From: Acidobacteriota bacterium
Lineage (GTDB): Bacteria > Acidobacteriota > Vicinamibacteria > Vicinamibacterales > UBA823
Length of the DNA: 39,632 nucleotides
Direction: 5' to 3'
Assembly: GCA_002730525.1 (NCBI GenBank)
Contig: PCAK01000025.1
Coordinates: 1 to 39,632 of the forward strand
Each line of letters begins with the position of its first letter. Position 1 is the first letter of the stretch. The position numbers and the translations under genes are program-made. Under the pieces are notes generated by a model that saw only the letters and a list, made by a program, of their open reading frames with translations, did not search any database and was not told the origin of the DNA. This document shows positions 12,243-29,625 of this stretch, in pieces.

Positions 12243-12773
12243 ATGATGAAGCTGATGTTGCTCGCGGGGATCATGGTGGGCGTGCTAGCCATCTCGACTG
12301 TCGCGAACGCCCAGGAACTGAGCCCTGGCGATGCCGCGCCGGCGTTCTCGCTCATCGGATCGGACGGCGAGACGCATTCGCTGGTGGACCATGCCGGTCG
12401 GACCGTCGTGTTGGCCTGGTTCCCCAAAGCCTTTACCGGTGGTTGAACGGCCGAATGCAAGTCGTTCCGTGAGAACAGTGATTCCATTCGTGAGTACGAC
12501 GCCGCGTATTACATGGTCAGCGTCGACGATGCCGAAACCAATCGCAAGTTCGCCGAGTCGCTCGACGCGGACTTCCCCCTACTGAGCAACCCCGAGGGTG
12601 ATGTCGCGCGGGCCTACGGCGTCGTGTCGCCCGAGCGGGAGTTCCCGCAGCGCTGGACGTTCTACATCAGCGGAGACGGGACGATTCTCCACATCGACAA
12701 GGAAGTGAATCCGGCGATGGCCGGGGAGCAGTTGGTCGAGAACTTCGCCAGGCTCAACGTGCCGAACCGGTAG
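12243..12773 (+). CDS. Secreted peroxiredoxin-type selenoprotein with in-frame TGA at the catalytic position (176 aa)
   Basis: The frame from ATG 12243 runs 67 codons to TGA (12444-12446) and then stays open in the same frame to TAG 12771-12773. The upstream half has a signal peptide (hydrophobic LMLLAGIMVGVLAI, cleavage after ANA) and a thioredoxin-fold start. The residues around the TGA read PKAFTGG-(TGA)-TAEC, which is the peroxiredoxin PxxxTxxC motif with TGA exactly at the peroxidatic cysteine, residue 68. The downstream half is the rest of the fold (YMVSVDDAETNRKFAES, FPLLSNPEG, GVVSPEREFPQRWTFYI). Selenocysteine peroxiredoxins are known in bacteria, so recoding is the best reading. C72 is the only other Cys/Sec-like residue. 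Role: periplasmic thiol-dependent peroxide reduction. sel genes are not in the window. A TGC-to-TGA error or pseudogene is the alternative. Confidence 0.85.
12453..12484 (+). promoter_or_regulatory. Candidate bacterial SECIS hairpin in the peroxiredoxin mRNA
   Basis: Starting 6 bases after the UGA, GAAT (12453-12456) pairs with ATTC (12481-12484), CA (12458-12459) with TG (12479-12480), and GTTC (12464-12467) with GAAC (12473-12476), closing a CGUGA loop at 12468-12472. The loop begins 22 bases after the UGA and has G as its second base, matching the published general model of bacterial SECIS elements (loop about 16-37 bases from UGA, early loop G, a U nearby). A shorter alternative hairpin (GAATG/CGTTC) also exists. 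Folding was done by eye. Confidence 0.5.
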
Positions 12774-12912: not shown

Positions 12913-13077
12913 CTAGGAGTCCTCGGACGGGCCGTTCGGGTCCTTGACCTCGTCCTTGAAGCCCCGAATCGCCTTGCCCATCCCTTTCCCGATTCCCGAC
13001 AGCCGGTTCGCGCCGAAGATCAGGAGCAGGATGAAGAAGATGACGACCAGTTCCATCAGGCCGATTCCAAAGGGCAT
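12913..13077 (-). CDS. tatA: Sec-independent translocase subunit TatA (54 aa)
   Basis: Forms the pore-building part of the twin-arginine export system. The layout is typical: a short periplasmic start, one membrane helix (MELVVIFFILLLIFGANRL), the FG hinge, an amphipathic helix (GIGKGMGKAIRGFKDEV) and a charged tail. The length is at the short end of the family. A minus-strand TATCTT lies 6 bases above the ATG, suggesting a leaderless message. No tatB or tatC is beside it. At least six Tat substrates are encoded in this window, one of them divergently 86 bases away, so the location is meaningful but not proof of shared control. Confidence 0.93.
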   Translation of the reverse strand: MPFGIGLMELVVIFFILLLIFGANRLSGIGKGMGKAIRGFKDEVKDPNGPSEDS

Positions 13078-13163
13078 GTGCCAAGATACCACGGGGGGGG
13101 CGCGGGCCGAAAGCGGGCGGGGCGCGCGAGCGAATTCGATCAGCGGGAATTTACTGGAGGCAT

Positions 13164-28700: not shown

Positions 28701-29625
28701 GCTGGCCCATGACCTCGTCGGCCGTCGCGAACGTCTCGAGCCGTTGCGGCGCCGCGTCGAAGACCAGGACGCGGTTGTTGCCGCTGTCGGACACGAACAG
28801 GCGCTGTCCGGTGGCGTCGTACGCGAGCGAGCCTGGACGGCTCATCCGGCGCGCGCTCAGGCCGGGTTCGCGCGCGGTGAAGCTCTCCTGCCCCAGCACG
28901 ATCGCGGCGTCCATTCCGGTGGCGATCCGATCGGGCGCGATATGGAAGACCAGAATCCGGTTATTCGAGCCGTCGCCGACGAACAGCCGCTGGTTGGCCT
29001 CGTCGACCGCCAGGCCGAGGCGTCGCCCTGCGTGGTTGGCGGCGAGCCCGCTCGTCTTCGTCTTGGCGTCGGGCTGACCGAGAACGAAGAGTACGTTCGC
29101 ACCCGTCGCGATCCGATCCGGATGGATGTCGAAGACCATGATCTGGCTGCCGCCGCCGGGCAGGCTCTGCCCGTTAGTGTTGTCCACCAGAAACAGCCGC
29201 TGGTTGATGTGCTCGATGGCGAGCGTGCCAGGGAACTCAGTCTGACTCTCGCTCCAGGCGCCGGCGTGCGACCGGCGGGCGTGCTCGCTCGGCTTACCGA
29301 GAATGTACGCAGCCGTGGGCTGCGCCAGGGTGCCGTCGTCGTTGAGATTGAAGACTTCAACGCGACCGTTGCCGTTCCCGGCGACGAACAACCGACCATG
29401 GACGCGCTCCAGCGCCCCCTGGGGCGGTCACCAAATGCTGTGGCCGGCCGCGCCACCGTTGGTCACGCCACCGACGAAGGTCGGATTGCCCCAGATGTCC
29501 TCCTGGCCGATCTGGTCACTCGCCGGCTGGCCGTTCCGTTGCGCGGCCGCAGCGGTCGGGAGCGCCAGCAGTAGCGCCGAAACGAGAGCCAGGTGGGCGG
29601 CACGCGGAATGTGGAATCGAGTCAT
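25792..29625 (-). CDS. Very large secreted beta-propeller (NHL-like repeat) protein with an in-frame TGA at codon 66 (1277 codons)
   Basis: The start at 29625 has an AGGAGG site 6 bases upstream and a signal peptide (LALVSALLLALPTAAAAQ). The frame then meets TGA at 29430-29428 (codon 66), after GGAAGHSIW, and continues in the same frame to 25792. About eleven repeat units follow, each ending in a motif like VLGQPDF with companion strands RLFVSDGGNHRVLGFD, so probably one or two propellers. The last ~400 residues hold three full and one cut-off beta-sandwich repeats (ending EGATLEAILR). TTG 29391 is the only restart candidate and has no ribosome-binding site. A CGA-to-TGA mutation, sequencing error or recoding are all possible; a hairpin (loop UGGA, 17 bases after the UGA) resembles a SECIS, weakly. 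Confidence 0.8.

Follow-up and report, generated by a model that had tools for sequence, protein, structure and literature searches.

The peroxiredoxin locus

The window, the whole stretch of 39,632 nucleotides analysed here, belongs to a Vicinamibacterales genome (G000) assembled to 3.31 Mb in 45 contigs with a completeness of 99.2%. It carries a gene for a predicted selenocysteine (Sec)-containing peroxiredoxin, and a second gene interrupted by TGA lies on the opposite strand (Table 1). The peroxiredoxin precursor starts with MMKLMLLAGIMVGVLAISTVANAQELSPGD, and its single in-frame TGA lies in the active-site context FPKAFTGG-U-TAECKSFR. The sequence-only reading had described an intact frame around one TGA at codon 68; this frame was present as claimed, and it was kept at full length in the alignment of homologues. 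The translated protein matched the Pfam families AhpC-TSA (PF00578; 1.4e-29, 103 bits against a gathering score of 26) and Redoxin (2e-18). No conserved partner gene was found in the peroxiredoxin neighbourhoods, and hence no electron donor was indicated by them. The SLC13-like transporter located downstream in 16 loci represented synteny among near relatives.

Table 1. Positions of the peroxiredoxin gene, the NHL-repeat gene and their features in the window
Feature	Position	Strand	Description and evidence
Predicted Sec-containing peroxiredoxin gene	12243..12773	+	176 aa, stop TAG; translation with TGA as U, Pfam, homologue-wide frame
Shine-Dalgarno-like GAGAGGAA	12230..12237	+	Upstream of the peroxiredoxin ATG; sequence
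Predicted Sec-type signal peptide, residues 1-23 (...VANA/QELS)	12243..12311	+	No twin arginine; heuristic rule
TGA for predicted Sec68, peroxidatic position (P61-x3-T65-x2-U68)	12444..12446	+	Translation, homologue codons
Cys72, putative resolving thiol (Sec+4)	12456..12458	+	81/81 family members have Cys at +4
SECIS-like hairpin, apical loop CGUGA at +22 from UGA	12461..12479	+	4 bp upper stem, C12463-A12477 mismatch in the window copy
Arg137, invariant	12651..12653	+	Alignment with mycobacterial AhpE Arg
Candidate exported NHL-repeat propeller protein, 1277 aa	25792-29625	minus	TGA at 29428-29430 = putative Sec66; Pfam NHL 4.5e-23
Hairpin after the NHL-protein TGA	29401-29416	minus	Loop at +17; nearly frozen

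Selenocysteine at the peroxidatic position

Codon 68 was compared across 80 homologues from other genomes, which were the best 80 of 293 matches in one-genome-per-species data, so that the Sec/Cys ratio is weighted towards near relatives; 71 of them carried TGA and 9 carried TGC or TGT, encoding Cys. The claim that the TGA replaces the catalytic Cys of a PxxxTxxC motif, and the proposal that an alignment should show Sec or Cys at this position, were thus both borne out. The TGA was kept in homologues down to about 50% identity. All Cys forms among the 80 best homologues came from Planctomycetota and Verrucomicrobiota, and the peroxiredoxin tree required about five changes between Sec and Cys, with no direction assigned. 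Only distant peroxiredoxin homologues (<60% identity) were found in the plasmid collection, and none near in the phage collection. Genes of this branch are known here almost solely from metagenome-assembled genomes. A base error at the TGA is implausible because the same TGA was present in the 71 homologues from other genomes.

The genes for Sec insertion, for which the sequence-only reading had suggested a search, were all found in the window genome. The selA (552 bits), selB (331.7 bits) and selD (351.5 bits) matches exceeded their curated cut-offs, and tRNA-Sec scored 61.6 bits against a cut-off of 47, with the anticodon UCA given by ARAGORN. SelD of this genome is itself a selenoprotein, with an in-frame TGA in CAGUAS (L103, G000:C10:38726-39655), and Sec-containing SelD is an arrangement already known.

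The peroxiredoxin gene was present in 131 of 162 genomes of Vicinamibacterales. Among the genomes listed, 103 had a TGA copy and selA was detected in 95 of these, compared with 11 of the 23 lacking a TGA copy, whose peroxiredoxin genes were recognised by the absence of a stop and may not all be Cys forms (Fisher p 4e-6, with genomes counted as independent of kinship). Most of the eight TGA genomes with no detectable selA were incomplete assemblies, and one, G075, is listed as 100% complete. The absence of any selA match at E<=1e-50 from G075, which has a TGA peroxiredoxin, may mean that the gene was lost in assembly or that Sec is made by an unusual route. Two related genomes (G055:C174:14304-15391 and G115:C223:11913-13105) have tandem peroxiredoxin genes, of which one contains TGA and the other is free of in-frame stops; these perhaps represent a natural Sec/Cys pair within one genome. 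Judged from the homologue codons, the sel genes, the co-occurrence with selA across the order and the hairpin described below, the active site of the window peroxiredoxin almost certainly contains selenocysteine.

The SECIS-like hairpin

The bacterial SECIS element is a hairpin 3' of the UGA with its apical G 16-37 nt from the UGA. The peroxiredoxin family as a whole conformed to this rule, with the loop at +22 and covariation in the stem, and the window copy did so weakly. The loop started 22 nt after the UGA in 71 of 72 TGA genes, including that of the window, and at +23 in the remaining one, and its sequence was CGUGA or a close variant, whereas none of the nine Cys genes had a hairpin at that position. 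In a marine subgroup the hairpin occupied the same place with a shifted register and an eight-base loop.

Comparison of 43 sequences showed that 95.3% of the cells in the paired columns were standard pairs and that four of the seven pairs were changed on both sides. Such double changes occupied 21 cells against 4.5 (sd 1.7) in shuffles, and none of 500 shuffles reached this number, while sliding the register by one to three columns reduced pairing to 32-70%. The Sec genes formed 6.88 of the 7 pairs against 4.57 (sd 0.15) expected from protein-preserving synonymous recodings, and the Cys genes formed 5.11 pairs against 4.17 (sd 0.37).

The window hairpin is the weakest copy of the family. Its upper stem consists of the four base pairs of GUUC/GAAC with a free energy of -2.3 kcal/mol, compared with -5.6 in the genus-mate L049, and position 12477 is A in the window where L049 has G, which produces the C-A mismatch under the stem. 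As many as 68% of synonymous recodings of the window sequence equalled its hairpin, the global fold of the region by single-sequence folding (z -0.16) did not contain it, and an Rfam scan of the window gave no match. The single-sequence fold by itself would have spoken against a SECIS; the reality of the hairpin was established by the family comparison, the window sequence alone being insufficient. The sequence-only reading had placed a hairpin with loop CGUGA at +22, starting 6 bases after the UGA, and had considered it a fit to the bacterial SECIS model. Its loop and position were correct, and the fit holds for the covarying family hairpin; yet the proposal was unsupported by the window sequence on its own, the conserved stem starts 14 nt after the UGA instead of 6, and the outer pairs that it had probably used are not conserved.

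Export

A home-made heuristic, which looked for a hydrophobic stretch followed by a small-x-small site, was used to predict signal peptides. By this simple rule a signal-like N-terminus, which had been claimed for the window protein, was seen here, as in 78 of the 81 family members, against 25% of shuffled controls. Among the three exceptions, an upstream ATG restored the signal peptide of L056, and an upstream lipoprotein-like LIGC stretch was found in L057. Lipobox-like sequences occurred in a few members (L030, L068 and, as LIGC, L057). The predicted signal peptide and the second Cys at Sec+4 are both family-wide features.

A small TatA/E-like protein is encoded beside the peroxiredoxin gene (about 12916-13080, minus strand), with no functional link apparent. 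Tat export was considered on account of this neighbour and rejected, since a twin arginine is missing from the window protein and, in the family, the pattern was found only in L080 and L081.

Export of a selenoprotein had been presented as an oddity that would need a folded selenoprotein outside the cytosol. This point is softer than stated, because other exported selenoproteins exist, namely the Tat-exported formate dehydrogenases and the periplasmic [NiFeSe] hydrogenases; it is the exported peroxiredoxin branch that seems unrecorded.

Active site, fold and relation to known peroxiredoxins

P61, T65, U/C68, C72 and R137 were invariant in an alignment of 33 members. The description of Cys72 as the only other thiol, in a U-x3-C arrangement, was true of the precursor; Cys was present at Sec+4 in 81 of 81 family members, in 68 of which it was the sole other mature thiol, and the +5 position was occupied by Lys, Arg or other residues. 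The AF2 model of the peroxiredoxin had a pLDDT of 90.9, and its nearest folds were Sulfolobus Bcp1 (3drn), mycobacterial AhpE and BcpB, and Xanthomonas PrxQ. R137 aligned with Arg116 of mycobacterial AhpE in the PDB alignments (numbering from the title of the R116A mutant structure 4xih).

PrxQ/BCP proteins, represented by Bcp1 (3drn) and Xanthomonas PrxQ, were the closest in sequence and fold, being small one-domain peroxidases with the second Cys in helix 2. Typical PrxQ carries its resolving Cys at CP+5, and the second Cys of 2ywn was at +5 in the profile alignment. The window branch departs from this pattern in having the second Cys at +4, in its predicted Sec and in its predicted export, and its scores lay below the NCBIfam cut-offs for PrxQ (73.1 of 260 bits) and BCP (69.5 of 140 bits). 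Mycobacterium tuberculosis AhpE shares the FPxAFTG active-site stretch, the catalytic Arg and the fold (Z about 22), but it is a 1-Cys enzyme, whereas in the window branch a second Cys is invariant and both Sec and a signal peptide are predicted.

The likeness to the TxxU family (PF00578/COG1225; PrxU and the marine Prx groups) consists of the peroxidatic Sec after T-x-x and the same Pfam domain, and the window branch differs from it by a near-universal signal peptide and the Cys at Sec+4. The score was 38.8 bits against a cut-off of 270 for the PrxU model (NCBIfam NF040737) and 21.5 bits against 298 for the thiol peroxidase Prx-SUH model (NF045827). Sec peroxiredoxins with TxxU form a well-known family of bacterial selenoproteins; the Sargasso Sea set contributed 43 of them (PMC1088965) and GOS 253 (PMC2398784), and PrxU of Eubacterium acidaminophilum is the reference Sec peroxiredoxin in a 2026 review (PMC13188914). 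The Sargasso Sea and GOS groups may include the window branch, which is set apart from them here by their descriptions and not by their sequences. Within what was searched for in each of the three papers, no mention of a signal peptide, periplasm or secretion was found (PMC1088965, PMC2398784, PMC13188914), and the open-access literature yielded no report of a Sec peroxiredoxin that is exported. The Prx-like thiol:disulfide oxidoreductase selenoproteins also share PF00578 and an active-site Sec; their motif is UxxC, and that of the window protein is TxxU with U-x3-C.

The NHL-repeat protein, a further selenoprotein candidate

The NHL-repeat gene, the second strong candidate for a selenoprotein in this DNA, was located by scanning for TGA codons with coding-type composition on both sides. 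Readthrough of its TGA joins a signal peptide and the conserved segment W-G-N-P-T...G-G-V-x-N-x-G...H-S-x-W-U to an NHL propeller. The TGA was kept in 13 of 13 matches, all within the bacterial family of the window genome, which comprised 8 orthologues, the window gene among them, at 73-99% identity and 5 paralogues at 43-45%; the gene was otherwise missing from 396 genomes sampled across the phylum. Sec66 would be the sole Cys/Sec in the full-length copies, and a partial paralogue carries two additional Cys, which lie in its signal peptide. No Cys homologue was found in the 396-genome phylum sample, the plasmids or the viral contigs. Nine sequences had the hairpin GGCGC-UGGANC-GCG(U/C)C in common, and its codons GCG CTG GAN CGC GTC were nearly frozen while the adjoining codons varied. 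The AF2 model had low confidence around Sec66. A C-terminal Sec was also considered, as all full copies end in TGA, and was rejected because the residues after it are not conserved, which indicates a plain stop.

NCBIfam had no model covering the protein, no described selenoprotein resembling it was found, and neither NHL nor propeller proteins are mentioned in the 2026 review (PMC13188914). From the conserved TGA and hairpin, we infer Sec insertion at this site, and the protein seems to represent a family of exported selenoproteins that has gone undescribed, possibly new and limited to the bacterial family of the window genome.

Discussion

The TGA finding in the peroxiredoxin is real, and the sequence-only reading of it was supported. 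The protein is likely an exported one-domain Sec peroxiredoxin on the PrxQ/BCP-AhpE side of AhpC/TSA, with hairpin-directed UGA decoding, resolution by Cys72 and reduction fed by DsbD. The UGA would be decoded as Sec by SelB and tRNA-Sec(UCA) with the help of the hairpin just downstream, and the precursor would exit via the general secretory route and fold outside the cytoplasm. Sec68, positioned by Pro61, Thr65 and Arg137, would then attack hydroperoxides, and Cys72, which lies one turn of the helix away, would resolve the resulting selenenic acid to give a selenenylsulfide. Reduction of the selenenylsulfide would fall to a thioredoxin-like partner outside the cytoplasm that receives its electrons from DsbD. 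The window genome encodes a full-length DsbD (623 aa), whose C-terminal domain contains WATWCKNC, as well as a TlpA-like exported protein with WCGPC, and these could carry out the reduction. The catalytic UGA, its conservation, the sel machinery, the hairpin covariation, the predicted signal peptide and the invariant Cys+4 and Arg are read from the sequences themselves, and Sec insertion, export, peroxidase activity, the selenenylsulfide and the DsbD route are what we infer for the working enzyme.

Other explanations of the TGA find little room. The window genome is represented by a single assembly, which would allow a sequencing error or nonsense mutation in a dead or misassembled peroxiredoxin, but the TGA is shared by 71 of the 80 homologues and, within the order, by 103 genomes, with the frame continuing downstream, so that the chance of such an error is practically nil and at the level of the family the idea is already refuted. 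Decoding by a recoded genetic code or leaky readthrough, for which nothing speaks beyond the open frame, is highly improbable in a genome with selA, selB, selD and a UCA tRNA-Sec, where the alternate at the codon is Cys and not Trp or Gly and the position-specific hairpin is confined to TGA genes.

The function and location of the Sec protein allow two further readings. It is unlikely that Sec is inserted into a protein other than a peroxidase, such as a U-x3-C envelope thiol-disulfide oxidoreductase, a peroxide sensor or a chaperone. The weak matches to ResA (a thiol-disulfide oxidoreductase) and PrxQ, all under the NCBIfam cut-offs, would agree with such a role, and no assayed member of the branch was found; against it stand the complete peroxidatic set P-x3-T-x2-U with the invariant Arg137, the nearest folds (Bcp, AhpE and PrxQ), and the UxxC, not TxxU, carried by the oxidoreductase families (PMC1088965, PMC13188914). 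Retention of the N-terminal hydrophobic stretch as an anchor or lipid attachment, with the enzyme bound to the outer side of a membrane instead of being soluble and secreted, might be expected for the few members with lipobox-like sequences, but is quite unlikely for the window protein, which has an A-N-A/Q-type cleavage site and in which no Cys precedes Sec68.

Sec peroxiredoxins as such were already known, and the new part is the predicted exported lineage spanning several phyla, of which no description was found in the literature or annotation models examined. Since standard gene prediction ends the frame at the TGA and no NCBIfam cut-off is reached, annotations of most genomes in this common soil and marine lineage probably contain just a fragment of the enzyme. 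The family also offers an alignment of a bacterial SECIS element that is deep and free of gaps. The system would allow a clear test of how a selenol enzyme stays active outside the cytoplasm, and the Cys forms that occur naturally in Planctomycetota and Verrucomicrobiota are available for comparison. Somewhat short of an even chance, in our estimate, is the broader proposal that Vicinamibacterales, Planctomycetota and Verrucomicrobiota use Sec as a standing component of their defence against peroxides outside the cytoplasm, by means of a distinct exported U-x3-C lineage supplied with electrons through DsbD, and that at least one further exported selenoprotein family, the NHL-propeller protein, for which the literature searched gave no description, occurs in the bacterial family of the window genome.
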